Assembly: GCF_034424625.1 (NCBI RefSeq)
Contig: NZ_CP139977.1
Span: 1-64,000 of the forward strand
DNA from: Janthinobacterium lividum
GTDB lineage: Bacteria; Pseudomonadota; Gammaproteobacteria; Burkholderiales; Burkholderiaceae_D
Length of the DNA stretch: 64,000 nt
Direction: 5' to 3'
The notes beneath the pieces were generated by a model that was not told the origin of the DNA, did no database searches, and saw only the letters and a program-made list of their open reading frames with translations. Made by a program: the position numbers and the translations under genes. How positions within the stretch are numbered: position 1 is the first letter of the stretch; each line of letters opens with the position of its first letter. Below are positions 4,079-32,770 of this stretch, piece by piece.

Positions 4079-4166
4079 ATCGTTTTCGGGAGCCCACCAT
4101 GGCCAAAGCCCTTCTTCCTGACGACCTGTGGGCGCTGATTCAGCCTTTGCTACCTGCAGGAGCCTA
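4079..4166 (+). pseudogene. IS5-type transposase N-terminal remnant
   Basis: The ATG at 4099 opens a frame reading MAKALLPDDLWALIQPLLP, which is typical of the start of IS5/IS427-group transposases. It stops within two dozen codons where dispersed-repeat copy A begins. The upstream bases also look like the leader of such an element. Only the first part of the transposase survives and it cannot be functional. A C-terminal piece of a similar transposase lies at 30137-30360 on the other strand, next to repeat copy J. Confidence 0.6.
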
Positions 4167-4569
4167 GGTGCCCTGCCAGGCTCCTGGTGTGCGATCTCGT
4201 AGCAGCCGGATCCAACGACAAGATCGGGGCTGGCCTGTCTAGCCGCCCTGCCCTGCAGACACTCATGCCGCGCGCTAGCAAAAGCCGGCCGTCCCTAGCC
4301 ATAGCTGCCGGCGAAGGATCGTTTATCCGATCGAGGCAGCAGCGGAGCGCCTGCTTTTACGCTCGATAGCGGCACAGTTGGCTACGATAAACTAGCCCGT
4401 CTTCTGCTTTGAGCGCTCGGCCAGATCGGGGACTTTGCGCGCTGGCGGTGGAGTTGCGATCACGGCTGACGCGACATGGCACCTGACGGTATCACGCCAC
4501 AACAGAAGCTTGCCATGGTCGCTTAACCTCTACTTTTAGGGCGCTCTAAAAATGGGGGGGGGGATTACC
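4160..4569 (+). repeat. Dispersed repeat, copy A (class 1 right end)
   Basis: First of eleven same-direction copies. It lacks the leftmost ~80 bases (joined instead to an IS5 remnant) but has the middle block containing GGCACAGTTGGCTACGATAA. It has the class 1 right end: GCTTAACCTCTACTTTTAG, a damaged version of the palindrome around GAGCGCTC, and a final GGGGATTACC. The inverted repeat CGATCTCGT / ACGAGATCG in the left part carries one mismatch here. Bases 4570-4784 hold nothing recognisable. Small frames inside the repeat are not genes. Confidence 0.85.
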
Positions 4570-4784
4570 TATAGACTTGCCAAAGGACCTCCGGCGAAGC
4601 TTCAACCATGTTTTGTTCTTTGTGCTAATAGCGAATATCTAAAGGGCTGTGATATGATTTTGGTCGGCTTGTATGGGCCCGCCAGTCCACCAACGGCAAA
4701 CACACAGTGAAGTCCTTCACTTACCTTTTCCAACGCAGCTCTCGTTAAGGTGGACGCCGGGAAGCGCGCGTTTGGAGAAGTTGC

Positions 4785-5693
4785 ATGAAAAAAAGTCCAT
4801 ACTCTGAGTTACTTGCTTGCCTCAAGAAACAAGCGATGCTCCTCGCTAATACCAACCAAGTTAGCTACATGAGGGCATTGGAAAGCTTAGTCCGTCAAAA
4901 CAATATCGAAGATCTTCACAGGCTCCAGTGTCTTGTAAAATCTGAGGCCCTCACCTCAGCTATCGGTGCGGCCGAAATACTGCCTTGTCCAAGATTAATG
5001 CAAACGATCTATAGGATTCGTATCGGTAAAAGCACCTGGTCGCTGAGGGTGTCAAAGCATGGGCCAAATCTTTACATCGAGGATCGTCCATACTGTGAAT
5101 TCGAAGATGATTCGCGCACCTCTGACCTAGGCCTATTCCAGGTTTTCGTCAGGGGTGTGAACATGCGTGATGGTCATGGGGACTACCCTAGGGATGGGTG
5201 GGTAGTGACCCGTTATGGCCACTATCGAGCACACACACTGGAATTCTTTTCCGATGAGGATGCGCAGGCGCTGTCGTACCACTTCGGAATTCCTTTCGCG
5301 CCAAAAACCTTCGGACGCTATGCGTCCTATTCGCAAAGCGAGTATTCGGAATTCTGCTTTCTAAAATCCCCCGCATTCGCAGCGTTGCGGAGGGCTTTTC
5401 GATGCGGCCAGATCACGTTGCCCCCAATGATCAGTTGGAACTATGGACTTTGTTCGCTTTGGCCTCACTTGGTCGCGATGTCCGACAAAGACTTCGAAGA
5501 TGTTGAACGTATCATGACCTGGTGCTTTCGAGCGATAGGTATGAAGCTCCCTCATGAGGCCCTTCTTGAGCGCTGGAGTGAGGTGCCAACACTAGGACTA
5601 ACTGGGATGGGCGTTAGTAGCCTGGGTGACATGTTTCGCCTGCGCAATGCAAGCCGCAAAAAGCGCCATTCCATCAGAGCGCAAAACAGCTAG
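4785..5693 (+). CDS. Hypothetical protein, 302 aa, alone between repeat copies A and B
   Basis: I do not recognise this protein. It starts at ATG 4785, a few bases after GGAGAAG. It has no signal peptide or membrane segment. The first ~70 residues look helical; the centre is mixed with several aromatic and Gly-rich strands; the C-terminus is basic. No nuclease, NTPase or protease motif is visible. It is the only gene between two co-oriented dispersed repeats, the same setting as the defence-like genes of the island. A role in defence or immunity is therefore possible but rests on context alone. Confidence 0.6.
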   Translation: MKKSPYSELLACLKKQAMLLANTNQVSYMRALESLVRQNNIEDLHRLQCLVKSEALTSAIGAAEILPCPRLMQTIYRIRIGKSTWSLRVSKHGPNLYIEDRPYCEFEDDSRTSDLGLFQVFVRGVNMRDGHGDYPRDGWVVTRYGHYRAHTLEFFSDEDAQALSYHFGIPFAPKTFGRYASYSQSEYSEFCFLKSPAFAALRRAFRCGQITLPPMISWNYGLCSLWPHLVAMSDKDFEDVERIMTWCFRAIGMKLPHEALLERWSEVPTLGLTGMGVSSLGDMFRLRNASRKKRHSIRAQNS

Positions 5694-5893
5694 CTAGTCA
5701 GCACCACTCAGAGGTGGATGAGCATGTCGCAGTTCGTTCACCTCAGGTACAGTAAAAGGTGCTCATCCGAGATGACGTTGGCGTTACCATTAGCTACCCT
5801 TCTGAAAATCCTGGAAGCGGAACCGAGAGTCTTACCAAAACGAAGCCATTCCCGAAATTTCGCCGCATCTTTTTCACAGGCGAATGGACAGCC

Positions 5894-6373
5894 TGAATCG
5901 CCACCGGTAACTTAGACTCTCCTGATCCATGGTTCTTGAAAGATATAAAACCGATGGATCGCGTTTGAGCCTGGGTGTCCGGCCAGGCACCTGGTGCGCG
6001 ATCTCGTAGCTGCCTGCTCCAACGCCAAGATCGGGTCTGTTTAGTCTACCTCCCCCTGCCCTGCAGAGACTCCTACCGCGCGCAAGAAAAAGTTGACCTC
6101 CCCTACCTATCACTGCCGGCGAAGGATGGCTTAGCTGACCGAGGCAGCAGCTGAGCGCCTGCTTTTGCGCGCTATAGCGGCACAGTTGGCTACGATAAAC
6201 TAGCCCGTCATCTGCTTGAAGCGCGGGATAAGATCGAGAACTTTGCACGCTGGCGGTGGACTTGGCATCACGGCCGGCGCGACATGGCATCTGACGGTAT
6301 CACTTCAAAACAGATGCTTGCCATGGCCGCTTAACCTCTACTTCTAGAGCGTGTAAAAAATGGGCGGATTACC
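5894..6373 (+). repeat. Dispersed repeat, copy B (nearly full, class 1)
   Basis: Best full-length class 1 copy, about 480 bases. The left terminus is TGAATCGCCACC, followed by TTAGACTCTCCTGATCCATG, the block with the CGATCTCGT hairpin arm, CCCTGCCCTGCAGAGACTC, and the GGCACAGTTGGCTACGATAA core. The right end reads GCTTAACCTCTACTTCTAGAGCG and closes with GCGGATTACC. Same orientation as all other copies. Bases 6374-6491 to its right hold nothing recognisable. Confidence 0.85.
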
Positions 6374-6491: not shown

Positions 6492-6815
6492 TTAGGTTTT
6501 GTCCGTATCGGTACCGAGAACTCTTAATTGCTGAACCTCAAGTCGAATTGCTTCAGTAAGTTCGGAAACTTCAGAGGAATGAAGTCGGTATTCAGCTGTT
6601 ACCTGCTCTTGGCTCTTGTTGGCAAGAAAAAAAAGCTTACCAGCGACCTCTAGTAGCAGACCGACCAATTTAGAGCTTCGATTGAGTCTGTTGGCTTGCA
6701 CCCAGCGGTCGAGTGCTCCACTAGACATTCCGTAGAGTTCCTCGCGCCAAAGTGCGCTGTTCACAGCGAGAAGCACTTCTCGCTGAGCGACAATGCGATT
6801 GTTAAATTCAGTCAT
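6492..6815 (-). CDS. Small helical protein, third gene of the nucleotidyltransferase operon
   Basis: A 107-residue protein predicted by eye to be almost wholly alpha-helical, without signal peptide or membrane span. Its ATG overlaps the stop of the upstream nucleotidyltransferase gene by four bases (ATGA), so the two are translationally coupled. Size and position suggest a partner or regulator of the nucleotidyltransferase. MNT-type enzymes are often paired with small helical HEPN proteins, but I do not see a clear HEPN R-x4-6-H motif, so it should not be called HepT. Function unknown. Confidence 0.6.
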   Translation of the reverse strand: MTEFNNRIVAQREVLLAVNSALWREELYGMSSGALDRWVQANRLNRSSKLVGLLLEVAGKLFFLANKSQEQVTAEYRLHSSEVSELTEAIRLEVQQLRVLGTDTDKT

Positions 6816-7435
6816 CCTCTTACCTCTGCGAGTAGTTGACGTATCCAGGTTTGGATGGAAGGAACCGCCCTGAGTACAAGCATAACCTCTTCGTCTGACA
6901 GCGCAAGGCCTATCCCACGCGTTGACAGCACTCGCGCGCGCGTGAGGACGCCAAATGCTTCTGCGTCCACGCTTAGCGGTACATTGATCAACAAGGGGGA
7001 TCTCCTTGAAAAAACGGGATGGCCACGCCAGATCGAATAGCAGGTGGCAAAGTTTCTAATACCTAGGAACATACAAGACAGATTGAAAGTGGCGTTCACT
7101 CGAGTTTTCGATAGTTGATTAAACGAATCAGAAAAAAGGTTAGCGAACTTTTCGCAGTCCTCCGCTCCAGCCGTGTAGGCTGCTGGAGCTCCCAGCGACG
7201 CGATGAAGTCTATACCATCTGACGAAAACAGGAGCTTAGATTCCAAATGGAGGTGCCAAGCAAACGGATTTCCCTCTGCCCATAAGTTGCGCAATCGATC
7301 ATGCTGATATACCGAGAACTTTTCAGTATCAATGTCAGAATTGGGCCCAGTGATGCAGGCAAGGAGGTCGACATCTGATGACTTATCAACTTCACCCCGG
7401 CAAATCGAGCCAAACGCGTAAAAGTGCATGTTCAT
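6812..7435 (-). CDS. Nucleotidyltransferase (MNT/Pol beta superfamily)
   Basis: A 207-residue protein whose N-terminus reads YAFGSICRGEVDKSSDVDLL. This is the GS-x(10)-DxD catalytic signature of minimal nucleotidyltransferases, which transfer NMP to protein, RNA or small molecules. The two metal-binding aspartates are present. The C-terminal two thirds are longer than in minimal MNT antitoxins and probably carry a helical substrate or partner domain. The gene is the second of three, overlapping its neighbours by four bases on each side (7432-7435 and 6812-6815). The setting with a pentapeptide-repeat membrane protein upstream is unusual. Likely activities are AMPylation of a partner, as in MntA/HepT, or a nucleotide-signal role. 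Confidence 0.75.
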   Translation of the reverse strand: MNMHFYAFGSICRGEVDKSSDVDLLACITGPNSDIDTEKFSVYQHDRLRNLWAEGNPFAWHLHLESKLLFSSDGIDFIASLGAPAAYTAGAEDCEKFANLFSDSFNQLSKTRVNATFNLSCMFLGIRNFATCYSIWRGHPVFSRRSPLLINVPLSVDAEAFGVLTRARVLSTRGIGLALSDEEVMLVLRAVPSIQTWIRQLLAEVRG

Positions 7436-8280
7436 CGGCGGCCAAAGCGCTTGACTAGGAGCGCGGTGAGCAACGATAACGCAATAAGCTTTGCAGCAGT
7501 GATCGCCGACGCGGCTGCGATCGTGTGGGATGGACGAGAAAGTGTCCCGAGGAATATTGCCGGAGCGGCCTTTAGACTCTCCCAGTACTCCAGGATCGTG
7601 GCCGAGCCGCTGGAAGCATTTGCATCGTAGGCAGCAATGATCATCATCACAATAATGATCGTCCGCAGCAGCTTGGAAATACTCTCACCATTCCCCCAAA
7701 CAAAATGAAGCACCCAGAACTCAACCCAGGCCAAAAACTGGCGGACGCGCAGAAAGCCAGGGTACTTCTTACGGTAAAACTCATCCTCAGATTGCCAGGA
7801 CTCAAGTAGATGACGTGAGGTAGCATCAAGTTCTTGTGTGATTGCCTCATTCACCGCTTTTGCATCGCCAACTTGTTGGAAGTTCATACGCAATGAGCGC
7901 GCAAAACGCATCTTGAGGTTCTGCCGGCTGGGGTTCCAAGCAGTCAGAATATCAGAGTCAATTTGACAACGCTCGAAGGTCGCATAGTCAAATTTGCAAC
8001 CGGGAAAACTCGACTGATGCAGGTTAGATCCGATAAATCGGCACCCCGTGAAATCGCAGGAGTCAAAAACGCAGTTTTTAAAATAGCAGCCGTCAAATAC
8101 GCTATGTTCGAACGACACGTTCTTGAATGTAATTTTGCTCGCGTTGAGGCGGGTGAAGTTCTTAAATTTGAATGTAACGGCCTCGTCCGCAATGTTTTTG
8201 GCGACGTAGTGGTCAGTAATGTTCTGTCTATTCCCAAGAGAATAATCGGCCGGTATCGCAGACAAGTTATCGTCAGTCAT
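7432..8280 (-). CDS. Pentapeptide-repeat membrane protein, ion-channel-like
   Basis: A 282-residue protein. Residues about 36-115 form a run of pentapeptide repeats (A/C/S at i-2, F/L at i), for example FKNVSFEHSVFDGCYFKNC, expected to fold as a right-handed beta helix. A helical linker follows. The C-terminal ~80 residues hold two hydrophobic spans separated by a short pore-like loop, an arrangement seen in pentapeptide-repeat proteins fused to a two-helix ion-channel domain. It is first in a three-gene operon with a nucleotidyltransferase and a small helical protein. A membrane effector controlled by the soluble partners is a reasonable inference, not shown by sequence. Confidence 0.7.
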   Translation of the reverse strand: MTDDNLSAIPADYSLGNRQNITDHYVAKNIADEAVTFKFKNFTRLNASKITFKNVSFEHSVFDGCYFKNCVFDSCDFTGCRFIGSNLHQSSFPGCKFDYATFERCQIDSDILTAWNPSRQNLKMRFARSLRMNFQQVGDAKAVNEAITQELDATSRHLLESWQSEDEFYRKKYPGFLRVRQFLAWVEFWVLHFVWGNGESISKLLRTIIIVMMIIAAYDANASSGSATILEYWESLKAAPAIFLGTLSRPSHTIAAASAITAAKLIALSLLTALLVKRFGRR

Positions 8281-8644
8281 TTTAGGTTTCGTAATTGGGT
8301 TGGCTCATATTCGCTAAAATCGTGTCTTTTGATAAGCGGCTACGACCGAGAAGTCAAATGTGCGTATTATCCCCCTTCAGAGGTGATGTCGCACGGATTT
8401 TTGCGTAGAGGTTCCACCGTCGACGCAACTGTCGACCGGGTTGCATTGGCGCAACCGAGATTTTTTCTTCCTCAATGACCATTGGATGGGATAGACACAC
8501 TGCATTCTGCAACTTTTCCGGCTACTTCGAAAATCTTCAAGCTTCCCCAGCTAATTGACTGCCAAGAATAGGGCTTGCGCCCTTCACCAGTGTTCGGGTC
8601 TGACCAAATCAATCTGCGGTATCTACTTACTCTCGATTGACGGA
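8281..8644. other. Intergenic stretch without recognised features
   Basis: This 364-base gap lies between the start of the pentapeptide-repeat gene, which reads away to the left, and the end of the DEDDh exonuclease gene. The promoter of the three-gene operon should lie in its left part. I see no clear -35/-10 pair, no repeat copy and no convincing reading frame. Confidence 0.4.
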
Positions 8645-9208
8645 TTAGGTGCCGATTTCTGCATGATTTGCCCTAAGCATGTTGCAGAACAGTGCTCCTT
8701 GCTCAATCGCATCATCAAGTGCAACGTGCGTGTGGGGAAAATTGTCGAACCACTGTTTGGGCATGTTGCGCTTCGTGCTCTCGCGATACTCAGTCTTCAG
8801 AATTGCCATTGCATAAGATTTCATGTCCAGTGCTGAATGGCTGAATGGACTCTCGCCGACGAAGCGAATGAGATACCAATACACGAATAAGAAGTCGAAG
8901 CCTGCCGGATAGGCGACGAATACAGGCTTTCCCTTAAGCGACTTGATCCAATCAACGTAGGCTCGCATGGCACTTTCGGGCTTCTGTAATTCGCCTCTGC
9001 ACGCAGCCCACGCTTCTGGCTGCGTGGCCCACCAGTCGGCTGTCTTTGGATGAGGCGATGCGCCATCCAGCGTTTCAAGGTTCGCGGAGAAAGTTGAGAC
9101 GAGCTTCTTGTCTGGTGTATATGCGGCTGAGCCGAAGCTCAACATGGAATGAGGACCTGGGATTGGCCCGTCAGTCTCAACGTCTGTGCTTATGTATATC
9201 TCGGTCAT
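8645..9208 (-). CDS. DEDDh 3'-5' exonuclease domain protein
   Basis: A 187-residue protein beginning with [10 protein letters not shown] (Asp9, Glu11), the ExoI motif of the DnaQ/RNase H-like DEDD exonucleases. It ends with [13 protein letters not shown], the ExoIII motif with His and Asp. Its size and the DVETDG form resemble the small Rv2179c-type 3'-5' exoribonucleases rather than the proofreading subunit. No other domain is fused to it. It is a single gene on the minus strand, separated by 364 bases from the nucleotidyltransferase operon, so joint transcription is unlikely. Possible roles are RNA trimming or defence. The catalytic motifs are clear; the substrate is not. Confidence 0.8.
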
Positions 9209-9392: not shown

Positions 9393-9783
9393 CTAAAGGC
9401 TTGCAAGTCGCTTGAAATTGGTTTTTTTTGTAGGATTGGGTGTAGCTTGTTGTTGAATCGGTGACGTACGCGCCGTTCCCGTCCCTCCTATCCCCTTGTC
9501 CGGGCAAATCTGGCTGGTGTGGTACGGTGGCGCGGCCAGCAACGTGCTGCCGTTCCATTCCATCTTGTAGGCGAGTTGCTGCCTGAACTCGCCCCATCCC
9601 TGGTCGAGAATGGCGCGGTGCAACCCCCACTTTTGGCGCACCTTCTTGCCCGGCTGCCGGCATCAACCAACTGATGAACTTGATGCCGCCTACATCGCGA
9701 CCATTTGCGCAGTTGCTAGTCGACCTTGCGGCGGCGCCGACAGATGGTAGATCAGGGCCACGGCGCCGGCGTGGCCGGCTGTT
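9393..9783 (-). pseudogene. Chimeric TnpB remnant, first copy
   Basis: On the minus strand the middle encodes KWGLHRAILDQGWGEFRQQL and then AWNG-like and PPYHTSQ segments. These match residues ~295-335 of the full TnpB at 43438-44679. The zinc-finger Cys codons are then lost and replaced by unrelated sequence (reading GIGGTGTARTSP). The same junction and the same flanks recur at 42548-42945, so this is a defective unit that was copied as such. It has no start, no catalytic Asp and no terminal hairpins. About 140 bases to its right separate it from repeat copy C and hold nothing else I recognise. Confidence 0.7.
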
Positions 9784-9920: not shown

Positions 9921-10247
9921 GTATCCTCCCTGCCCTGTAGAGACTCTTGCCGCGCTCAAGCAAAAGCTGACCTTCCCTACATATGACTGCCGGCGAAGGA
10001 TGGCATAGCTGGCAGAGGCAACAGCAGAGCGCCTGCTTTTGCGCGCTATAGCGGTACAGTTGGCTACGATAAACTAGCCCGTCATCTGTTTCGTGCGCTC
10101 AGGCAGATCGGGGGCTTTGCGCGCTGGCGGTGGAGTTGCGATCACGGCCGGCGCGACATGGCACCTGACGGTATCACGCCAAAAACAGAAGCTTGCCGTG
10201 GTCGCTTAACCTCTACTTTTAGAGCGCTCTAAAAATGGGGGATTACC
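9921..10247 (+). repeat. Dispersed repeat, copy C (left-truncated, class 1)
   Basis: It starts at the CCCTGCCCTGTAGAGACTC block, so the left ~180 bases are missing. It then follows the consensus to a perfect class 1 right end: the 18-base palindrome TTTTAGAGCGCTCTAAAA, then GGGGGATTACC. Same orientation as the other copies. Confidence 0.85.
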
Positions 10248-10463
10248 CGTCGTGCTGATATCCACCAAACGTTTCTCTCGATTGCCTGGATACTTATCTG
10301 CTGGCGATATATTCGGAGATTTTCTTAGGCCTTCTTAGTCTATCTTGTCTTGGCATCGATATTGGTTAATGAGACTGAACCGTGTAAGGTGTGGTATACA
10401 GCAGTGAGCCGCATTCCAATTTTTCTTATTTGGCAACTTGCCATCGTCGTAGTTTGGAGCAAT

Positions 10464-10811
10464 ATGAAGCATCCGTATCCACCGTATTCTGCCATTGAGC
10501 TTGCGCTGAACGAAGTTATTCTAGCTGCTCGCTTGAAAGGAGTAAGCTTCAAGAATACTGAATTGATTACTACGTCAGAGGAGTGGGATAGAGAACTTGT
10601 GGTTTTATTTTTTTATCAAAATAACACTGATTTGCAATGGAATCAAGAAACCGGCATTAATGAATGGTTGCAGCGAAAATTCGTTAATGAACTGAATGCC
10701 ACCAAAGGCCGCTATAGTTTTACTGAATTTCCAGAGATCACTTTCATGTTTGACTCCGAAGAAAATGTTAAGATGAATTTTCAAGGGGATTATTTTTTAC
10801 GGCTAAGGTAG
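10464..10811 (+). CDS. Small hypothetical protein between repeat copies C and D
   Basis: A 115-residue protein of unknown function. I chose ATG 10464 because GGAG lies five bases upstream; the frame also runs back to a TTG at 10350 without support. The N-terminal third looks helical. The rest alternates charged and aromatic residues in short strands (WDRELVVLFFYQNN, then FTEFPEITFMFDSEENVKM), a pattern like small soluble immunity proteins. No signal peptide or catalytic motif. It is AT-richer than the tra region and is the sole gene between two dispersed repeats. Confidence 0.55.
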   Translation: MKHPYPPYSAIELALNEVILAARLKGVSFKNTELITTSEEWDRELVVLFFYQNNTDLQWNQETGINEWLQRKFVNELNATKGRYSFTEFPEITFMFDSEENVKMNFQGDYFLRLR

Positions 10812-10869
10812 CGTCTCGTGACCACCGTTTAGTTCGCAATCCAGTTGCTGATACTCATTTTGGAAGGGA

Positions 10870-11240
10870 TGAATTGCCTCCCGTTGCTTAAACTCTCCTG
10901 ATCCATAGTTCTCAGAAGATGAAAGATCGATGGATCGTGTTAGTGCCCTGGAAGCCCTGCCCGGCGCCTGGCGTGCGATCTCGTAGTTGCCTGATCCAGC
11001 GATGAGATCGGGTCCGAGCTGTCTATCCTCTACCCTGCACAAGCGCCTACCGCGCGCTAGCAAAAGCTGCTTGGCCTTCGGTGAAGTTCTCCATGCACGC
11101 TTCCGTAGCTAAACCTCAACGTTAATCCCGGGTTCCGCGGGTCGCGGCGCAATCGATTCGAGTTCTCTTTCGCATCATTTCCGCTCTGCAAAGATGCATT
11201 TAAGTTAAAGTGTTGCATGATTCGATTGTATCCGCAGTAA
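10870..11240 (+). repeat. Dispersed repeat, copy D (class 3 right half)
   Basis: The left end is TGAATTGCCTCC, with consensus sequence through the CGATCTCGT hairpin to GCGCGCTAGCAAAAGCTG (about 11076). From there it departs from class 1 and class 2 copies and instead matches copy J: a block with GGGTTCCGCGG, TCGATTCGAG, TCGCATCATTTCCGCTCTGC and GATGCATTTAAGTTAAAGTG. Same orientation as the other copies. The right boundary is approximate. Confidence 0.75.
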
Positions 11241-11368
11241 GGAGTGGAGCCTCACCAATTGAACATGCGTACTTTACTGATGATGAGCGATATAAAAATG
11301 CCGTCCGCTACCGCTGGCGGAAAGACGGAACGGAGCGACTTATTCCGTCGGAGTGGCCAGCAAGATAA
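11213..11368 (+). CDS. Possible small ORF upstream of the DUF6361 operon
   Basis: A 51-codon frame opening with TTG at 11213 and reading, in its second half, a charged segment YFTDDERYKNAVRYRWRKDG. The amino-acid make-up looks protein-like, but there is no good ribosome binding site and the first codons lie in the copy D tail. It could be the end of a gene truncated by the repeat. I would not treat it as an established gene. Confidence 0.25.
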   Translation: MHDSIVSAVRSGASPIEHAYFTDDERYKNAVRYRWRKDGTERLIPSEWPAR

Positions 11369-11436
11369 GCTGCAATTCATGATTTAGTGCTTGCCGGATT
11401 CGCTCGACTCTATTGATAAACGTAGGTAACCTAGAT

Positions 11437-12633
11437 ATGAAAAAGAATCAGACAGTAGATCCATCATTTGGTTGGTCCTACTTATCCCGAGATGCCCTCG
11501 CTAGGGCAAAATCTCAGATGGAAGAAGAGTCAGTTGGTGTGCGAGACGAAATAGGGTTTCTAACCCTACACCAGCGATATGCTGACTACTTTTTCCCTGG
11601 CACATCGGTTTTACATAGCCGGGCACGCTATGCAGTAATGGTGCCATGGTTGTTTGAAGATCTGTCAAAGCTTAACGGCGATGCAGCAAGGAAAGCACTT
11701 ATTGAGAGGGAGCGGCAACTCGCGGGAAGGCTTAAGGGCGAAGGTATCATAGGAAAGCGAGTTTACCCAAAACCAGCTAGCCAGGCCCCGTCGACAATAT
11801 ATTGGAATGCACTTTCCGTCTGGGGAATCTTAAAACACGGCGCGAACAACCGAAAGATTTCACGAAGGCAGGCTCACAAAATGCTTAACTCGGCTACTGG
11901 AGCGAAGGACGACGATGGGCTGCCGTTGCTTTTGGCAGAGCACCCGTTTATACGCCTTCCCAAACGGCCAGCAACTTGGTTTGAAGGTGAGCTGACTCCA
12001 CGACTAACGAAAAAAGAAGCAGCTTTTCTACGAGACAGGCTTTCAATTTTGCCGCGTCTAGATGGCAGTAACGACTTGTCGCTACTGGCTCTCTTGGTGA
12101 AGACACAGTCCCCTGCCCCCGCGAGCATGTGGGGCGAAGAGGTTTTTACGCTTGATCCAAATAATAGCGCCGTACTGAGGCGAGCAGAACAAGCAGCTTA
12201 TCTTGCCGGCATCGGTCGAGCCATATACGACGGTTTAGTAGAGCTGCTGAGTTCTAACGATCAATCCCCCCTGCTATCGTCAAGGCACACCAATCATATT
12301 CCTGAGATCGTGAGCAAATATGGTAGCGCGGCTGTACAACTCGACATTGGCGAGCTGGAGCAAGACGTTGGGGTGCTTCCTAAGCAGCTAAAGACTGTTT
12401 TACTTGAGACGCAAAAGTGGATCGTGGCAGGCAAACACGCTCCCGAGAAGCTGCTCTCGTTTTACCGAATTGCAGAAGCCAGGAAGGGAATTCGCGCACG
12501 TTTGTCTGATAGCAATGAAGGTCGATTGCGCCGACGAGAATGGGCACTAGACGAACATGCGACTGCGACACCGCTGCACTATCGATGGACGCAAGTGTCC
12601 ACATTGCTGAATGACCTGGCGGACGCACAATGA
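11437..12633 (+). CDS. DUF6361-like protein, first gene of the helicase/PLD operon
   Basis: A 398-residue protein that opens with FGWSYLSRDALARAKSQ and has YFFPGTSVLHSRARYAVMVP near residues 50-70. I associate this pattern with DUF6361, a family of unknown function. ATG 11437 was chosen over the in-frame TTG at 11413; the RBS (GTAGGT) is weak either way. There is no membrane span and no catalytic motif I can identify; the protein looks like a helical scaffold or sensor. Its stop overlaps the next start (ATGA at 12630), so it is coupled to the PLD-like and helicase genes. It probably works with them as one anti-phage or restriction-like unit. Confidence 0.65.
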   Translation: MKKNQTVDPSFGWSYLSRDALARAKSQMEEESVGVRDEIGFLTLHQRYADYFFPGTSVLHSRARYAVMVPWLFEDLSKLNGDAARKALIERERQLAGRLKGEGIIGKRVYPKPASQAPSTIYWNALSVWGILKHGANNRKISRRQAHKMLNSATGAKDDDGLPLLLAEHPFIRLPKRPATWFEGELTPRLTKKEAAFLRDRLSILPRLDGSNDLSLLALLVKTQSPAPASMWGEEVFTLDPNNSAVLRRAEQAAYLAGIGRAIYDGLVELLSSNDQSPLLSSRHTNHIPEIVSKYGSAAVQLDIGELEQDVGVLPKQLKTVLLETQKWIVAGKHAPEKLLSFYRIAEARKGIRARLSDSNEGRLRRREWALDEHATATPLHYRWTQVSTLLNDLADAQ

Positions 12634-14429: not shown

Positions 14430-14451
14430 AAATTTCTGAAGAGAGAAAACA

Positions 14452-23319: not shown

Positions 23320-23524
23320 GGTAGTTGCCTGATTCAACGACGAGATTGGGTCTAGCCTGTCTATCTCCCCTGCCCTGCAGAGACTCCCACCGCGCACTAG
23401 CACAAGCAGGCCTTCCCTAGCCGCAACTGCCGGCGAAGTATGGTTTATCCGATCAAGGCAGCAGCAGTGCGCCTGCTTTTGCGCGCGATAGCGGCACAGT
23501 TGGCTACGATAAGCTAGCCCGTCA
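23320..23524 (+). repeat. Dispersed repeat, copy G (truncated both sides)
   Basis: It keeps only the central ~205 bases: TAGTTGCCTGATTCAACGAC, the CCCTGCCCTGCAGAGACTC block, and the GGCACAGTTGGCTACGATAA core up to GCTAGCCCGTCA, where a DnaE2 fragment is joined. The left arm of the hairpin is lost. Same orientation as the other copies. Confidence 0.8.
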
Positions 23525-23885
23525 CCCACTCGCTCTCTTGCTCGAGCGCATCAACAAGATGCGCTTTGTGCCGTCGGACATCCTGGACACCTTCAGCGAT
23601 GCCCAGCTGGCCAGGGGCTACGACATCGTCACGGTAAGGCAGCGGCCGGAAACGGCCAAGGGGGGGATCTTCCTCACCCTGGAAGATGAATTTGGCACCA
23701 TCAACATCATTGTCTGGCCCACGCTGGTGGAAAAGCAGCGGGCCGAACTGATGAATGCCTCACTCTTGGGGGTGTACGGCATCTCGCAATCGAAGAGTGG
23801 CGTGCGCAACCTGATTGCCAAGCGGCTGGTCGATTGCTCACATCTGCTTGGACAGCTGGATACGAAGAGCCGGAATTTTCACTAA
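23525..23885 (+). pseudogene. DnaE2 (error-prone polymerase) C-terminal fragment
   Basis: About 115 codons encode FVPSDILDTFSDAQLA, VRQRPETAKGGIFLTLEDEF, IIVWPTLVEKQR and the final LGQLDTKSRNFH. This is the OB-fold and C-terminal end of DnaE2/ImuC, the mutagenic polymerase of the ImuA-ImuB-DnaE2 cassette. A full protein is about 1000-1100 residues, so over 85 percent is missing. The upstream part is replaced directly by repeat copy G. A TTG at 23538 could start translation, but the piece would lack the polymerase. Confidence 0.85.
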
Positions 23886-24087
23886 CGAGTGCACCTTCGC
23901 AATTAATTATGGCAACAAAGTGCCTACAGCAATCGTGGCGATTCAAACCCCTCCAAAACATCAAAGATGCTTTGACCTGAAAGTTGCTATGAAGTTTTAA
24001 AACTATCACTAACACGCGCACGCTAAGCATATTAAAATGATGATCAGTGAGCCGAACTCTCCGACTTCAATTTAGGAATTTTACGAA

Positions 24088-25051: not shown

Positions 25052-25321
25052 CTAGCCTTGTCCCCCTTAATCACCGACGGCGAAGAACTGCATATCTAAA
25101 TGGGTCAGCAGCAGAGCGCCTGTTTCTGTGTGCTATGACGGCATAGTTGGCTACGATAAACTAGCCCGTCATCTGCTTCGTGCGCTCGGCCAGATCGGGG
25201 GGCTTTGCGCGCTGGAGGTGGACTTGCGATCACGGCCGGCGGACGGTATTACGCTAAAACAGAAGCTTGCCACGGCCGCTTAACCTCTACCTTTAGCGCG
25301 CTCTAAGACTGGGGGATTACC
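25052..25321 (+). repeat. Dispersed repeat, copy H (left-truncated, class 1)
   Basis: The right ~270 bases only: a degenerate start, then CAGCAGCAGAGCGCCTG, GTTGGCTACGATAAACTAGC, and the class 1 end GCTTAACCTCTACCTTTAG with a damaged palindrome and GGGGGATTACC. Same orientation. The stretch 24991-25051 upstream has no feature I can identify. Confidence 0.8.
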
Positions 25322-25397
25322 GGTAGAGCCGCCCCCTGGCTTAATCGGGATTCCAATATATTGACTGGACGCCTGCCGATCTCAGTACAATGCCTCG

Positions 25398-26168
25398 ATG
25401 AATGCGAACGATCCCTTCGACCGCGACAACTTGACCCCTGCAGAAACCCTTCTTGCCGGGCAGAAGATTGCCCGCGACTATTTTCAGGGCGAGCTGTATC
25501 AACGCGATGGCGTTTCCCGCCTCGAGGGAATCACTATCGATCAACTCGACGGCGCCAGGTTGGACCTCGACGAATCTGAGACCGGCAGGCTGTTCATGAT
25601 CCCGGATGGCTCCATTGTATGGGCGCTCGAAGTAAGGGAGCACGGCGAGGCGCCTGCCGGCTTGGAGGTCGTGTCGAACAACCTCTTCATGGCCGAAGAC
25701 GAGAAAACCAGTGTCATCGCCTACAGGGATGACGAGGGTGCATCCCTGCGCGTCGACGCGCTCTATATCCGCCGACTGATACTCGCCGTCGACGCGCCTG
25801 AACGCATGGCCACGGTTGCATTCGGCCTGATGGCTATCTCGGCTTACCGGCTAGGCTTTGGCCACATTTCGCTTTTCGCAGCTGGAAACGGACCGATCGA
25901 TCCAGACGACCCGGACGGTTTCGTTGGATTCGCTGTGTGGCCGAAATTCGGGTTTGACGCGCCACTCGAACCTGCCGAACTAAACATGGCACCATCCGAG
26001 CCCCTGCGTGCTTGCCGGACTGTCCAGGAGGTTATTGCTGTGGACCAAGACTGGTGGAATGTACACGGCCGGGGCCGGGATATGCGCTTTGACTTGAGCG
26101 CCAACAGTCGAAGTTGGACGATTCTGCTAAACTACCTGTATCAATCACTCCCCCCTGCCGGAGATTGA
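25398..26168 (+). CDS. Hypothetical protein, 256 aa, first gene of a two-gene cassette
   Basis: I do not recognise this acidic, soluble protein. Residues 1-40 look helical, followed by beta-rich sequence (RLFMIPDGSIVWALEVREHG). Around residues 130-170 is AVDAPERMATVAFGLMAISA, a helix of the kind seen in acetyltransferase-like or small-ligand-binding folds, but without diagnostic motifs. ATG 25398 lacks a good RBS. The GC content is close to that of the tra region and higher than that of the neighbouring Septu-like genes, so its origin differs. The next gene begins three bases after its stop. Confidence 0.6.
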   Translation: MNANDPFDRDNLTPAETLLAGQKIARDYFQGELYQRDGVSRLEGITIDQLDGARLDLDESETGRLFMIPDGSIVWALEVREHGEAPAGLEVVSNNLFMAEDEKTSVIAYRDDEGASLRVDALYIRRLILAVDAPERMATVAFGLMAISAYRLGFGHISLFAAGNGPIDPDDPDGFVGFAVWPKFGFDAPLEPAELNMAPSEPLRACRTVQEVIAVDQDWWNVHGRGRDMRFDLSANSRSWTILLNYLYQSLPPAGD

Positions 26169-26171
26169 ACC

Positions 26172-26417
26172 ATGACCGCTTTGAAGAAAACGCCTCCCAC
26201 CCAAAACAGTGCCTACAAATTGGCAGCGGCTGCTCGCCGCGCCAAGGTCGCTTCCATGCGTACTCCGATCATCGGTGAAGTCAAGCCATCCCAGGGCCGG
26301 ATCCGGGTCACGCTGGGTGGCAAAGCCATCAGCCGGGCCGCCCGTTCGGGCGTGTTCGGACCGTCTTCGATCGAAATTCCAGAATTTTCCAGCGTCCGGA
26401 AGCCCAAGCCAGCATGA
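26172..26417 (+). CDS. Small basic protein, second gene of the cassette
   Basis: An 81-residue, lysine/arginine-rich protein of unknown function. A helical N-terminal half (SAYKLAAAARRAKVAS) precedes a short strand region, RIRVTLGGKAISRAARSG. It starts three bases after the upstream gene, so the two are surely co-transcribed. Size and charge suit a nucleic-acid-binding partner or an antitoxin-like protein, but nothing diagnostic is present. Confidence 0.55.
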   Translation: MTALKKTPPTQNSAYKLAAAARRAKVASMRTPIIGEVKPSQGRIRVTLGGKAISRAARSGVFGPSSIEIPEFSSVRKPKPA

Positions 26418-26477
26418 TGAAGTGGCCAGTGGTCGCTTTTTTTTCGCGCGCGACACCCCTCCGGCAGTGCACAACCG

Positions 26478-26662
26478 TCATGCTCCAAGACGGCTAAGAA
26501 TCCAAGGAAGCCAAATAGCGACGCTCGCTGCCGCGCAGACAACTCCTCCAAGGAGGAGCATCGTCTTCCCGAATAAGCTCAACAGATAGCCGATCCAGTA
26601 CTTCTGTATACCAGCCAGGTAGGTCACTTCGTCCCTGGCGCTCCAGTTTTTTTCGCTGTCAT
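26478..26662 (-). pseudogene. Small membrane-protein ORF broken by an A7 tract
   Basis: On the minus strand GGAGGA lies ten bases before an ATG (26662) that reads MTAKK. A run of seven A then throws translation out of frame. With one more A the frame would continue as NWSARDEVTYLAGIQKYWIG and a hydrophobic helix ending in ILSRLGA, about 61 residues in all, to the stop at 26478. The strong ribosome site and the protein-like downstream frame argue that this is a real gene with a homopolymer frameshift. Slippage could still produce it. A GTG at 26627 could start a 49-residue form. Function unknown. The bases 26663-26809 to its right show nothing. Confidence 0.4.
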
Positions 26663-26809
26663 ATTTTTAATATCCTCCGCTTGCGCCGTTTCGCCGGCTC
26701 ACGTCCATTCTGGCGTCACAACACGATCCATGTGCAGTAGCATCGCTCGGACTTTAGTGTGCCAAAAGCCCGTTGGCGTGGTTGCACCGGGTTTCGTGCT
26801 CGCGATGTA

Positions 26810-27000
26810 TGAATCGCCACCAGCAGCTTAGACTCTCCTGATCCATGGTTCTAGAAAGATGAAAAAAGATGGATCGTGTTAAGGCCTGGGTGTCCTGTTA
26901 GGCACCTGGTACGCATTCTCGTAGTTGCCTCATCTAACGACGAGATCGACTCTGGCCTGTCTATCGCCCCTGTCCTGCATAGACTCCCCCGCGCTCAAGA
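26810..27000 (+). repeat. Dispersed repeat, copy I (right-truncated)
   Basis: The left ~190 bases of the repeat: TGAATCGCCACC, TTAGACTCTCCTGATCCATG, a hairpin with a damaged left arm (CATTCTCGT), and the CCTGTCCTGCATAGACTC block. It stops at GCGCTCAAGATGG, where AT-rich sequence leading to the Septu-like genes begins. Same orientation as the other copies. Confidence 0.8.
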
Positions 27001-27127: not shown

Positions 27128-28189
27128 CTAAAAGAGATGATTATTAAATACTTTATCTGCCATATCAAGGAATTTTAATATATCGCGCTTAGCTTTCCCG
27201 TGATACTCAGCAAGGATTTTCCTTGAGTCTAATGGAACATCTTTTAAGATCATTCGAACGCCCCAGCTCAATTCACGCGAATCATGTCTTTTTAGCCCAC
27301 GGTACTCCCGTTCCAGTTCTAATAACTTATGGTCTGCAATATATCTTCCTGGCAATCCAAAATCCACAACCGCATTCATTTTCCCTGCAGCAGATTTTTC
27401 TTTTATTTCTACAATTCTCTTTCCAGAAATGTCAGTTGACAATTCAAATTGAAAGTATGAATCAAAGGAATCGCTATACGGATTAATGTGAGTGGCGAGA
27501 TCAAACTGCTTTGCCCCTTTGTATCGAGAGTTACATATTCCACAGCAAGGAATCAGGTTAAATATTGAAGTGGAAAAATAGGGATGAGTCACTTTCGAAA
27601 AAAAATGATCCAAGTCTAACAATGCCCTTTTGCTTACTTTTTGAGCACCTGGATCTACCGGCACAACCTTAATTGGAAGCTCTCCACAATATGGACAATA
27701 GGTCGTAGGCTGCGTAATTTTATCTAATAGGTCGATGCAAAATTTTGAGCTTCGGTATTTCGTATAGTTAAATATTTCCTCAGAAATCAATGCGCCAAAT
27801 TTATTTTTCTTTCTACCCTTCACTCCATTGGTGCAAAATAAATTGGCCGGAGAATTTTTAATTATCTCTAATCGCATCAAATTTAACTCATCAGGGGCGG
27901 AAACGATAATCAGCTTTAAATTTTTTTCATTATCACTCAAAAGAAAATCAAAGAATGCACATTGTTCCCCTGCAATCTTCGCACTCTTTCTCGCATATTT
28001 CCCCAGATATTCTTGATCTAAGTTCTTGGATTTTTCTCGATATTTCCTCACAACCGAAATTAGTGACTTTTCCGAATAAATCCCAGCGGTTTGTGGGTTT
28101 AAAGAATTCCAATAATTGTCGGCCTGAGTTTCGAGGTATTTCTGGGGATTAACCGTGGTATTGCTCAAATGTTCAAGAATTTTAATCAC
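27128..28189 (-). CDS. HNH endonuclease, Septu PtuB-like
   Basis: A 353-residue protein with an HNH nuclease core. CPYCGELP is followed about 25 residues later by LDLDHFFSKVTHPYF and then NLIPCCGICNSRYKG; the four CxxC cysteines and the D-H...N pattern are intact. I chose GTG 28189, which overlaps the stop of the ATPase gene by eight bases and follows AAGGAAA. The open frame continues to 28270, but that would mean an 89-base overlap. In Septu systems an SMC-like ATPase (PtuA) and an HNH nuclease (PtuB) act together to cut nucleic acid during infection. The pairing and order fit. Base composition is strongly AT-rich. Confidence 0.75.
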   Translation of the reverse strand: MIKILEHLSNTTVNPQKYLETQADNYWNSLNPQTAGIYSEKSLISVVRKYREKSKNLDQEYLGKYARKSAKIAGEQCAFFDFLLSDNEKNLKLIIVSAPDELNLMRLEIIKNSPANLFCTNGVKGRKKNKFGALISEEIFNYTKYRSSKFCIDLLDKITQPTTYCPYCGELPIKVVPVDPGAQKVSKRALLDLDHFFSKVTHPYFSTSIFNLIPCCGICNSRYKGAKQFDLATHINPYSDSFDSYFQFELSTDISGKRIVEIKEKSAAGKMNAVVDFGLPGRYIADHKLLELEREYRGLKRHDSRELSWGVRMILKDVPLDSRKILAEYHGKAKRDILKFLDMADKVFNNHLF

Positions 28190-29900
28190 GATTAAATATT
28201 TCCTTAAGGCTATTAACATTCTTATTATTGTAAATTTCTTCGAATTTAAATTTAAATATTTTATCCCCAAGTATATTTAGAAAATCTTCGATGTATTCTT
28301 TTTCAATAGCTGTGTAGCTTTTATTGTCCAAGAGTTTCATGAAATCCCGAATTTTCAGAGATGAAAATAAACCACTGGTCATGCCTTCTAAGAATAAAGG
28401 ACCTGCATATAAATCGTACAAGTTAGCACCAAAAGTCTCCAGCGAGTGGTTGAAATTTTGTGCATCAGATTCGCGATCACCCAGTATCGCGATATTTTGC
28501 CTTGGTAGATCAGATATGAGTAAAGGTGAATGGGATGTTAAAATTAATTGAATCTTTCGATTAGTAGCTATTGACAATATTGTGAGTAGGCGATATAAAA
28601 AATCAACCTGCCATTTCGGATGCAGATATAGATCTCCCTCATCAATTAAAAGGATTACGTTATCCTCAGCAACCTTATCCAAAGCGGAAGTAAGAGTTGA
28701 AAATAGATTGAGATATGCTTTTTGGCCTGAACTCAATCCAAGCCAATCTAAGTTGATAAATCTTATGAAGCTCATATTTGCAGCATAGCTTTGCAGAAAA
28801 TTCCTGCTATACCCACTATATCTTATGATAAAACTTTGTTGCGACCTTTCTCGAATTGCATCGCTTGAATATTCCATGTCTAAGTCCGAACACATTGCTG
28901 GAAGATTCTCAATGAAATCAAATTGTTGCTTAAGCAGGATCCCGTCGGCAAGGCGTGGGTGTGAAAATATATCAAATTTCTCACTCTTAAAAATCCCAAA
29001 CTTCATACATCTTTTTTTTAATTCACGTATTAATTCTGCCAGAACTTCCTCAGTCGAAGTAAATCTGTCCATGACGTAACCGACATCAAAGTCAAGATCA
29101 ACTAAGTGATTCTCACCACGATCTGAAAATCTCACACTACCTAAGTAAGCATTTAAAAATCCAACATAGTATAAGTATTGGGACAACAGCGCAAATCTGG
29201 TCCTAGGTTGCAAATCTTTAGTTCGGCGACGGATAAATTTATGTAGTTCCGATAGATTTTTTGATGACAGAAGGTTTTGACGTATACCTGTAAATGTGTT
29301 GAATACGTTTACAGTGATATGAGCTGCGATCGGCTCTTCTATTTCCAATTCACTGAAATAAGGAGATTCAAGAAACGAAATTTGTTTTGAAAAATCCAAA
29401 TCCCATCGAAGTGCTGAGCGAAGATTTTTTGAATTTTCAGAAAGATCGAAGACTTCTTTACTGAAATTATTACGCCTCTGATCATTGACATTGGAAAAAA
29501 ATACGACGTCTAATGAGGATATATTGCCTCGGTGTTCTTCAAAATCTACGCACCTCGAAGTTGGAGGTGTCGGCGATGTAAAGTTGTAGTATCCGATATA
29601 TCTTTTCTTGCCACTCTGCTTTGTTATGACAAAAAAATCCTGCAATATCGATGTTTTTGATCCTTTTAATGAATTGCAAATCAATTCCAATGCATTACTT
29701 TTTCCAGAGCCATTTTTTCCAATTAGGGCTACGACATCAGTTACGTTGTAGGGAAAAAAATTTGCTGGTATTTTTTTTGTCCCTATTCGTTGAACAGAAT
29801 TCTTTTCTTTGCTGTACTTAAACTGAACCGTGGATGAAAGATTCAATTCAAAATCTTTCAAATTTTTGTATTCTTTAACCCAAATGTATATTATTTCCAT
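28182..29900 (-). CDS. SMC/OLD-like AAA ATPase, Septu PtuA-like
   Basis: A 572-residue ABC-type AAA ATPase. Walker A is GKNGSGKS (residues 61-68), the signature is LSSGQKAYLN, Walker B is VILLIDEGDLYLHPKWQ, and the H-loop is LILTSHSPLLISD. These motifs define the RecF/SMC-like AAA_15/AAA_21 ATPases used by Septu, retron-Septu, Gabija-like and related systems. No TOPRIM domain follows, which argues against Gabija/OLD. The HNH gene overlaps its 3' end, as in ptuA-ptuB. The upstream region (29901-30136) is very AT-rich and has a TATAAT-like box on the minus strand, without a convincing -35. The region is markedly AT-richer than its surroundings, suggesting recent acquisition. Confidence 0.8.
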   Translation of the reverse strand: MEIIYIWVKEYKNLKDFELNLSSTVQFKYSKEKNSVQRIGTKKIPANFFPYNVTDVVALIGKNGSGKSNALELICNSLKGSKTSILQDFFVITKQSGKKRYIGYYNFTSPTPPTSRCVDFEEHRGNISSLDVVFFSNVNDQRRNNFSKEVFDLSENSKNLRSALRWDLDFSKQISFLESPYFSELEIEEPIAAHITVNVFNTFTGIRQNLLSSKNLSELHKFIRRRTKDLQPRTRFALLSQYLYYVGFLNAYLGSVRFSDRGENHLVDLDFDVGYVMDRFTSTEEVLAELIRELKKRCMKFGIFKSEKFDIFSHPRLADGILLKQQFDFIENLPAMCSDLDMEYSSDAIRERSQQSFIIRYSGYSRNFLQSYAANMSFIRFINLDWLGLSSGQKAYLNLFSTLTSALDKVAEDNVILLIDEGDLYLHPKWQVDFLYRLLTILSIATNRKIQLILTSHSPLLISDLPRQNIAILGDRESDAQNFNHSLETFGANLYDLYAGPLFLEGMTSGLFSSLKIRDFMKLLDNKSYTAIEKEYIEDFLNILGDKIFKFKFEEIYNNKNVNSLKEIFNRD

Positions 29901-30380: not shown

Positions 30381-30762
30381 TGAATCGCCATCAGTAGCTT
30401 AGGCTCCCCTGATCCATGGTTCTTGAAAGATGAAAACCGATGGATCATGTTGGACATGGGCGTCCTGCAAAGCACCAGGTGTGCGATCTCGTAGCGGCCT
30501 GATCCAACGACGAGATCGGGTCTGGCCTGTCTATCTCCCCTGCCCTGCAGAGACTCATGCCGCGCTCAAGCAAGAGCTGCCTGAGCTTCGGCGGGTTCCC
30601 GCATTAACGTTCCCGCTGCAAAACGCCTTGTGACGGTAATCTCGGGTTCCGCGGTGCGCGGAGCAGTCGATTCGAGCTATCTCTCGCATCATTTCCGCTC
30701 TGCAACGATGCATTTAAGTTAAAGTGTTCCGTTGATAGATTGAGTCCGCAGCCAATAGCAGC
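30381..30762 (+). repeat. Dispersed repeat, copy J (class 3 right half)
   Basis: The left end is TGAATCGCCATC, with a perfect CGATCTCGT / ACGAGATCG hairpin and the CCCTGCCCTGCAGAGACTC block. After GCAAGAGCTGCC it switches to the class 3 right half shared only with copy D (CTCGGGTTCCGCGG, TCGCATCATTTCCGCTCTGC, GATGCATTTAAGTTAAAGTG). The right boundary is approximate. About 185 further bases before the next gene hold nothing I recognise. Confidence 0.8.
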
Positions 30763-30947: not shown

Positions 30948-31313
30948 ATGTGCCAAAGACTTGTATGTATAGTGTTGATCATAGCCACCCTTGCAGTGGG
31001 CTGCAGTGAGAAACCAGCCGCAAGCCTGTCATGCTCAATGATTTTCAACGGTAACCATCCGATGGACGCGCATATCACTATTTCGGCGAATGGGCAGACA
31101 GCGACCTTGGTCTGGGTTACCAAGACTCAAGACCTATCCACATGGATTATTCGTGGTCAACTTGATGGTAGGTTCTTCAAAGGAACCGTAGACGGAGATC
31201 TTGGGACGCATATATCCATTGATCGTACAACTGGGGAACTTGAGATGGCCGACAGCAAAGAACCCATTCGTCGCTATGTCGGAAAATGTGAAAGCTCAAA
31301 TAAGGATTTCTGA
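30948..31313 (+). CDS. Small putative lipoprotein
   Basis: A 121-residue protein with a signal peptide ending LAVGC (Cys about residue 19), so a probable lipoprotein. The mature part is a compact beta-rich domain with two more Cys residues (CSMIFNGN near the start and KCESS near the end) that may form a disulfide. I do not recognise the family. It lies between repeat copies J and K, 99 bases upstream of a PLD-like gene in the same direction, so the two may be co-transcribed. Confidence 0.55.
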   Translation: MCQRLVCIVLIIATLAVGCSEKPAASLSCSMIFNGNHPMDAHITISANGQTATLVWVTKTQDLSTWIIRGQLDGRFFKGTVDGDLGTHISIDRTTGELEMADSKEPIRRYVGKCESSNKDF

Positions 31314-31412
31314 GTTTGTATTAGTGAATCACCGAACCATTCATCCAACCTGAACGCGATAGCGCGCGCCGGTTAGCACGATAACGTTTGGCGTCAATTG
31401 GGAGTCACTGCC

Positions 31413-32237
31413 ATGTCGAACCTGAGTCTGTTAAGCCAAGACATTTGGGCGACTCTAGCGTCTGAGTCGGCTAAGTCCACTGGCATGACTGCTGCGGTCG
31501 CCTACGTCACGAATGTTGACGAGCTCCAGTTCCGGGCCAACGATACCCTCGTGCTCGATGCATCTCCCGCTTCAATCCAAGCCGGCAAGACCAGCGCACT
31601 CGTTGTCGAGCGGCTTTTCGACAAAGGCGTATTGCTTTATTCCTGTCCGAATCTTCATGCCAAGATATACGCATTTGGAAGTTCGGTCGTCGTCGGTTCA
31701 CCGAATCTTTCTTCGAGTTCCAGAAGCACACTTATTGAATGCGCCATCCTCTCACGCTCCCCCCTGCTCGTCGTGGAAGCCAGAAACTGGATTGAGCAGC
31801 TTGCCTCGCGCTCAATACAAATTGATCGGGACTACGTGAATCAGATAAAGTCAATCGCTGTCGAACCAGTAGTACCTCCGCAGGAAAAACCGGGCCTCAC
31901 AGGTCTTTGGTACCTGAAGACCGCCCCGAATGCTCTCTCGAACAACATGCGAGCCTATTTCTTAGCATTGATCATCGCTCAGCTCGGTACAGTTCAAGCG
32001 CAACGCGCGTTTCGGCTCTGGCCCGGAGCGGATTTCAGGCAACACAAGAAGGAAGGGCGATTGCAACAAGTCGGTGACCGTTACGTACTAACACCGCGGG
32101 GCGTCGACTATTTCTCCCTGCCGAAGCAGCGAGCAAAGGACGACCTGCTACAGCTATTCGTTGTGGCCGTGCGCACTGGCAACGGCGCAGACCTACCAGT
32201 AGACGAAACGCGAATGCTCCGCTTGTCCGAGGTGTAA
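31413..32237 (+). CDS. Single-motif phospholipase-D-like protein
   Basis: A 274-residue protein with one HKD-like motif at about residues 83-105: NLHAKIYAFG followed by VVVGSPNLSSSSRS. This is the H-x-K...S-x-N form seen in PLD-family nucleases such as Nuc/BfiI-like enzymes, which work as dimers when only one motif is present. The C-terminal half (from about residue 165) looks like a helical or winged-helix domain, possibly for DNA binding. ATG 31413 was preferred over the TTG at 31398 because GGGAG lies eight bases upstream. It is flanked by repeat copies J and K. Confidence 0.65.
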   Translation: MSNLSLLSQDIWATLASESAKSTGMTAAVAYVTNVDELQFRANDTLVLDASPASIQAGKTSALVVERLFDKGVLLYSCPNLHAKIYAFGSSVVVGSPNLSSSSRSTLIECAILSRSPLLVVEARNWIEQLASRSIQIDRDYVNQIKSIAVEPVVPPQEKPGLTGLWYLKTAPNALSNNMRAYFLALIIAQLGTVQAQRAFRLWPGADFRQHKKEGRLQQVGDRYVLTPRGVDYFSLPKQRAKDDLLQLFVVAVRTGNGADLPVDETRMLRLSEV

Positions 32238-32336
32238 ACGTTAAGCACAACACTTCATGTCAAACGTAGAAGTCTACTTGTCGATCTTCCCCGACGTCGA
32301 TTTCGGGGCGCAAGCGGATGGAGCCGATTAGCGCTC

Positions 32337-32770
32337 TGAGGCGCTGCCAGTAGCTTACTTTCATGATCCTTGATCCATGGTTCTTGAAAGAAGAAGAGCC
32401 GATGATCGTGTTGAGGCCTGGGCGTCCTGAGAAGCATCTGGTGTGCGATCGCGTAGCAGCCTAATCCACCGACGAGATCGGGGCTGGCCTGTCTATCTCC
32501 CCTGCCCTGCAAAAACTCCTACCGCGCGCTAGCAAAAGCGGACCGTCCCTGCCTATAACTGTCGGCGAAGGATCGTTTATCCGATCGAGGCAGCAGCAGT
32601 GCGCCTGCTTTTGCGCGCGATAGCGGCACAGTTGGCTACGATAAACTAGCCCGTCTTCTGCTTCGTGCGCTCGGCCACGCGCTGGCGGTGGACTGGTCAT
32701 CATGAGCATCCCAGCCCGCTCAATTGCGAAAAGCGGTAATTTGAGCGTCTAGCGAACTCGTGGCAATTCA
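32337..32770 (+). repeat. Dispersed repeat, copy K (complete, class 2, with target duplication)
   Basis: The best complete copy, 434 bases. The left end is TGAGGCGCTGCC, an imperfect match to the family end TGAATCGCCACC. The right end is CGTGGCAATTCA, nearly its inverse complement. The bases just outside are CTC on the left (32334-32336) and CTC on the right (32771-32773), consistent with a 3-bp target duplication. No transposase is encoded. TGA...TCA ends with a 3-bp duplication are compatible with mobilisation by an IS3-family transposase, but that is an inference. Confidence 0.8.

Follow-up and report, generated by a model that had tools for sequence, protein, structure and literature searches.

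Integrons are known for sites that all point in one direction, for exchangeable cassettes and for a shuffled cassette order. Other arrays are built on insertion sequences (IS): in those of the IS26/IS6 family, a circle of cargo and one repeat is the proposed mobile unit, with RecA able to act between copies (PMC7986276). The rAID arrays of Bacteroidales are defined by short, co-oriented genes together with a predicted tyrosine recombinase (PMC12247911). This text concerns arrays of gene cassettes between direct repeats in Janthinobacterium, seen in a stretch of 64 kb ("the window") at the start of contig C2 (440,276 bases) of a J. lividum genome that also has a 6.3-Mb contig, C1. Eleven repeats, A to K, divide this stretch into ten cassettes. 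From the sequences compared, it is probable that homologous recombination between these fossil composite repeats shuffles the cassettes.

The likeness to IS26-type translocatable-unit arrays lies in the direct repeats with cargo between them. The IS26-type repeat, however, is an IS6-family element with a transposase, whereas the Janthinobacterium repeats have IS3-family and IS30-type ends and no whole transposase gene. They are also ~75% alike, genus-specific and mosaic, with crossovers at many internal places, and their cargo is defence, immunity and metabolism. With integrons the arrays share the exchange of cassettes as units and the shuffled order, but cassettes reach ~29 kb and genes lie in both directions. 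With rAID arrays they share acquired immunity genes and a conserved intergenic sequence, CdiI- and Tdi1-type genes occurring in part of the array of J. lividum EIF2. Unlike in rAID arrays, no tyrosine recombinase common to all of them was found in the 8 genomes searched, window genes lie on both strands, and immunity genes fill only a part of the EIF2 array.

Like defence islands, these arrays hold clustered defence genes on mobile DNA. Unlike in ordinary islands, the modules are bounded by one repeat family, and exchange is readable from the sequence. Defence islands acquire and shed modules in ways still to be explained; in these arrays one can directly read the boundaries, the exchanged unit and the crossovers, in 12 genomes and on both plasmid and chromosome contigs. 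IS26-type direct-repeat arrays and integron-like turnover are known in outline, but a literature search gave, among its listed results, no description of this form, a cassette array built on dead IS ends with no integrase found. It offers a testable case that the decay products of IS may be enough for integron-like turnover, with no integrase found.

Direction of the repeats and sharing of cassettes

Each repeat is a composite of a left module called L (200 nt, seen in this genus only) and one of three right ends, RY, R6 or R2. A preliminary description of the window had reported eleven repeats in one orientation, and all eleven (11/11) are there on the + strand, each starting within ~15 bases of the place given. 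With a profile made from these 200 nt, 22 L copies, all on +, are found in the main array of C2, which spans 85 kb from C2:387540 over the contig end (440276/1) to 32337. C2 is presumably a circular plasmid, with the array running across its contig end. A smaller array on C2 (302-308 kb) and one on C1 (3882-3893 kb) have 3 L copies each.

Within an array the direction of L is uniform. This holds for 115/115 copies in 19 arrays of 12 genomes (11 genomes plus J. lividum EIF2, with some arrays being contigs of draft assemblies), and no array mixes the two orientations (0/115). Independent insertion in random directions would give this result with a probability of ~2^-96, a figure that is limited because duplicated copies are not independent. 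IS3 and IS30 copies within the arrays serve as a control, and these point both ways: of seven seen, one runs with the array and six against it.

For the comparison of cargo, 93 cassettes were delimited between L-bearing repeats and compared with one another. Whole-length matches between arrays number 12 pairs, in six families. Cassette E-F (19648-20800) is found entire in genome G007 at 99.9%, and is present in 2/40 genomes of the genus. Cassette F-G (21237-23320) recurs entire, at 97%, in two other arrays, one on C1 of its own genome and the other on plasmid p356839 of J. lividum EIF2; apart from EIF2, its own genome is the only one of the 40 to have it at high identity. A cassette of 429 bp is a tandem double in G007 and single in G002. 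Copy H has no L, and it still delimits a shared cassette.

The neighbours of shared cassettes are unlinked. In 57 cases of a shared edge the neighbouring cassette is known in both sequences for 27 (the other 30 had no known neighbour pair, so that the result covers these 27), and it is homologous in 0/27. Over 117 copies, upstream flanks (21 clusters) and downstream types (12) are decoupled. Of the longest shared segments (71 in all), 12 run from one repeat edge to another. Of the 59 partial ones, 17 left ends and 13 right ends coincide with repeat edges in both of the sequences compared, where random placement expects 0.16 and 0.18.

The process we propose is as follows. The repeats would be decayed composites of IS ends that now serve merely as long direct homologies. 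Homologous recombination, presumably by RecA, between two copies would excise or insert one repeat plus one cassette, and would also exchange cassettes between arrays, between plasmid and chromosome, and between different Janthinobacterium genomes. A circle with one repeat would insert by a single crossover, leaving all repeats pointing the same way however the genes are oriented; uniform polarity would follow from this. New genes may first enter with the insertion sequences whose remnants flank most cassettes, and the host may benefit in its defence. The preliminary description had suggested modular exchange by homologous recombination, and whole cassettes with different neighbours, together with scattered crossovers, support it.

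More tentatively, it is nearly as likely as not that the exchange is genus-wide and free of any integrase. Fossil repeats on plasmids and chromosomes would then be a common homology currency, by which modules for defence, immunity or metabolism are gained singly, as repeat plus cassette, in fixed polarity and by host recombination. Captured IS ends would be the door through which genes enter.

Where the crossovers lie

When two sequences share the cassette before a repeat, identity stays at the level of the cassette on entering the repeat, and then falls to the level of the repeat. The left part of L thus goes with the preceding cassette. A three-level change-point model located this switch in 57 comparisons (27 right-edge, 30 left-edge) and placed it within the repeat in 44/57. 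In right-edge comparisons it lies inside L in 24/27, anywhere from L8 to L192 (the numbers are positions in L). In left-edge comparisons it lies within the repeat in 20/30, with switches also in RY, R6 and R2. Support intervals that do not overlap (L66-75, L83-116, L118-127, L139-149 and L184 onward) mean that there is no single crossover site.

The freshest exchange is that of E-F with G007, where there is a single mismatch over 19473-20896. The tract ends at L125 in repeat E on the left and at L115 in repeat F on the right, ~10 nt apart; allowing one more mismatch per side moves these ends to L109 and L125. Such near coincidence would be the trace expected if a circle holding one repeat and one cassette had entered by a single crossover. 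In a second fresh exchange, that of the 429-bp cassette between G007 and G002, the right end is at L139-149 and the left at L156-166, which is close, not equal.

Integrons, too, display sites in one direction, sharing of whole cassettes and neighbours that are decoupled, and in the two freshest exchanges all breaks fall in about L109-165. A dedicated integron-like recombinase could be using the repeat as its attachment site to move the cassettes. This is quite unlikely. Crossovers are spread across the whole repeat and not at one fixed point, and because of this scatter homologous recombination is preferred over a site-specific enzyme. The integron integrase (TIGR02249) was over cut-off in 0/12 genomes, ten of which carry arrays of the present set (G028 and EIF2 were outside the search). 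Tyrosine recombinases (PF00589) adjoin some arrays only in the 8 genomes searched, and none was found beside every array. Among the 45 widest families of open reading frames (ORFs) around the arrays, most identified by eye and two by Pfam, no recombinase was recognised by eye, and no profile search for serine recombinases was made. These families include IS transposases, TnpB, LysR, an antisense ORF over L, a DNA polymerase III alpha-type protein, alpha-amylase and plasmid genes. L also has no conserved secondary structure: RNAalifold gives 0 pairs on 59 copies, unlike attC with its conserved single-strand fold. In addition, copy H delimits its shared cassette although it lacks L.

Several observations weigh against homologous recombination at the repeats as the whole explanation. 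Fourteen of the 71 longest shared segments meet no repeat edge. One cassette family continues into different DNA in G015, C2, G023 and G028; its joins in C2 and G028 have no detectable repeat, the one in G023 shows nothing but a remnant of IS30 type, and the repeat in G015 begins within a gene. In 13/57 comparisons the change point fell beyond the repeat or could not be resolved, and for 14/44 of the switches within a repeat the support interval extends to the repeat edge. Comparisons of cassettes and of crossovers have members in common and are not independent. In older whole-cassette pairs, left and right crossover positions do not coincide. Finally, the minimum length for homologous recombination is ~25 nt, and the longest identical run between L copies has a median of 17 nt (at least 20 in 35% and at least 27 in 11% of 3,916 pairs). 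Such recombination should therefore be rare, or need tolerant mismatch repair.

Since joins without a repeat do occur, repeat-mediated exchange is not the sole process, though it is the main one. Breakpoints unrelated to the repeats, which the preliminary description had named as evidence against its model, are accordingly real in those 14 segments and in the repeat-less joins of two genomes, but they are not the rule.

Composition and origin of the repeats

Repeats measure 200-480 nt. The preliminary description saw long blocks common to all copies; a common repeat family does exist, but instead of forming one uniform unit it is pieced together from the ends of decayed IS. Mean column identity of L is 75% (59 aligned copies, all loci). 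Its left edge is sharp in 77 copies chosen for the L start, beyond which the flanks differ, except for shared cassettes and a palindrome. That palindrome, CCGCTTTGGGGCGGAAGCGGACGGTGCCAT, stands left of L in 21/77 copies (for example locus L027, 3610-3650, and locus L029, 296-336), and in G015 an IS30-type element is located inside it.

The right ends are remnants of insertion sequences of IS3 type and IS30. In RY (~280 nt) an IS3-family transposase gene is represented by its 3' end; the module terminates at GGATTACC, which is the right terminus of intact IS3-family elements with inverted termini GGTAATCCCCC. R6 (~175 nt) comes from an element of 1.24 kb, of which it is the right end, with a transposase that we take to be of the IS30 type; three intact copies of this element lie within arrays and one lies 18 kb outside. 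R2 (~85 nt) comes after a shortened RY and terminates in GTGGCGATTCA, an inverted copy of the tip of L. Ends resembling R2 follow an IS3-type reading frame in EIF2 (by eye) and TnpB-like sequence at window position 42540.

These ends raise the question whether transposase built the arrays while the repeats were live IS, as translocatable units of the IS26 kind, leaving what is now a fossil. RY and R6 match the ends of elements with transposases, R2 closes on the inverted tip of L, and IS26-type elements do form direct-repeat arrays (PMC7986276). On the other hand, no repeat copy examined has a whole transposase gene, no full-length parent of L was identified, and the cassette shared at 99.9% is recent and postdates the decay. 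As an account of the arrays this is unlikely; it may explain how they originated, not their recent shuffling.

The sharp left edge of L and the inverted tips of R2-type copies could also suggest a small mobile repeat, like a miniature inverted-repeat transposable element (MITE), that was inserted many times in one direction into an existing island. Both edges are intact in 32 copies, and three of these, K included, have a matching 3 bases on either flank. This is, however, about what chance gives with the shifts that were allowed, and so is no sign of target duplication. Three different right ends, the travel of the left part of L with the preceding cassette, and the uniform 115/115 copies, which rule out random-direction insertion, make such an origin very improbable.

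The interior of L is non-coding in present copies. As a piece of protein-coding sequence it was rejected, as single-base gaps between copies break every frame, and one + frame runs into TAG where copies have A in place of G. A fold like that of attC or of a conserved RNA is ruled out by the 0 pairs noted above and by one L copy folded as DNA, which gave a z of -1.9. The antisense ORF over L turns up repeatedly (one cluster unites 33 ORFs of 11 genomes; in the window an example is at 5874-6290), and annotations may wrongly list it as a gene.

The repeat core is found in genomes of one genus, among them J. lividum EIF2 and Janthinobacterium sp. TND4EL3, FT68W and 344. A pattern scan also matched two unrelated metagenome assemblies, which was considered chance. 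Queried with L, a sample of 294 genomes of the family gave 17 of the same genus, its own included, and outside the genus one stretch of 31 bases; these genome counts are lower bounds, as few candidates per genome were scored. In an earlier sample, a 480-nt query matched 24/37 genomes of the genus against 0/24 others, some of them via the IS3 part only. Matches in Massilia and Burkholderia plasmids are due to the IS3-derived right end and not to L. Scans of the window for tRNA and Rfam families (gathering threshold) gave nothing, and a search of a phage collection gave no match.

Repeats and cargo in the window

The window copies, all on the + strand, are unequal: 10/11 have at least part of L. 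Four are truncated on the left. Repeat A (4158-4559) consists of L from model position 73 to 200 and the IS3-type right end RY, repeat C (9922-10246) of the end of L (155-201) and RY, repeat F (20801-21236) of L (20-200), RY and R2, and repeat G (23321-23530) of L (114-200) and part of RY. Full copies of L are found in B (5894-6372), with an RY ending in the IS3-family right terminus GGATTACC, in D (10870-11244) and J (30381-30758), both with the IS30 right-end remnant R6, and in E (19352-19647), with part of RY. Repeats E and F hold the left and right ends of the E-F exchange tract. H (25066-25320) is RY only, I (26810-26999) is L without a right module, and K (32337-32770) has L, RY and R2.

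Repeat A has, in place of its left part, the start of what looks by eye like an IS5-type transposase gene (window 4050-4158), and clusters with this left flank recur in G024 and G023. Beyond repeat G there is a lone inverted tip GTGGCGATTCA at 23935-23945.

The genes between the repeats had been called mostly defence-like, which is true only in part. Strong matches to defence models were obtained for three of the ten window cassettes; the rest are without one, and other arrays have mixed cargo, with immunity, metabolic and other genes. Cassette D-E carries ZacA, ZacB and ZacC (11413-17451, + strand; PADLOC E 2.1e-81, 4.4e-111 and 3e-250). Cassette I-J carries PDC-M62A and PDC-M62B (27128-29900, - strand; E 1.1e-76 and 5.1e-33), which are related to the Septu pair PtuA/PtuB. 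Cassette B-C holds a nucleotidyltransferase, a pentapeptide-repeat protein and an exonuclease effector (6812-9208, - strand; effector E 3.1e-32); the nucleotidyltransferase has a weak likeness to HalB, far below cut-off. Other window proteins have weak DrmC-like and specificity-like matches, and PADLOC gave no match for another ten proteins, of which eight are encoded in the window and two elsewhere on C2.

Cassette E-F has one ORF of 260 aa without a Pfam, NCBIfam or PADLOC match, and F-G has a LysR regulator and a flavodoxin-fold protein. Homologues of C-D (10247-10869) in G002 and G028 (621 bp, 93-95%) extend to its right edge; for H-I (25321-26809) a homologue (1482 bp, 95%) extends to the right edge of a G024 cassette.

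From the remaining C2 array ten proteins were chosen, of which PADLOC matched PDC-M17AB, JukA and PDC-M01AB, and five had no match. Other cargo there includes a STAND-like protein, alpha-amylase and a C39-type ABC transporter. In EIF2 the cargo comprises CdiI, Tdi1 and other immunity-named genes, and PAAR and Rhs proteins. Position next to L could in this way be a handle for finding new defence and immunity genes.

On the EIF2 plasmid, a run of small genes at 325000-334258 (locus L065, 18000-27419) lies between L repeats in the direction of these repeats, with several immunity families (CdiI_2, Tdi1). It looks like an orphan-immunity array. The immunity genes of EIF2 had prompted the idea of displaced toxin C-terminal arrays of the Rhs/CDI type, which was dropped because genes lie both ways and the repeat is non-coding.

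Adjoining the repeat array, outside the repeats, is a gene on the minus strand (34821-41396) for a protein of 2191 aa, the first 786 residues of which match Avs3a (PADLOC E 2e-198). Further on, window 42540-44700 is a TnpB-bearing region (IS605-type) with an end at 42540 that resembles R2, and an 81% copy of part of this region is found at 9425-9724, in cassette B-C. Conjugation proteins TraG (N-terminal) and TraH are at window 46859-51505. About half of 34821-59000 has 93% likeness to J. lividum EIF2 plasmid p356839.

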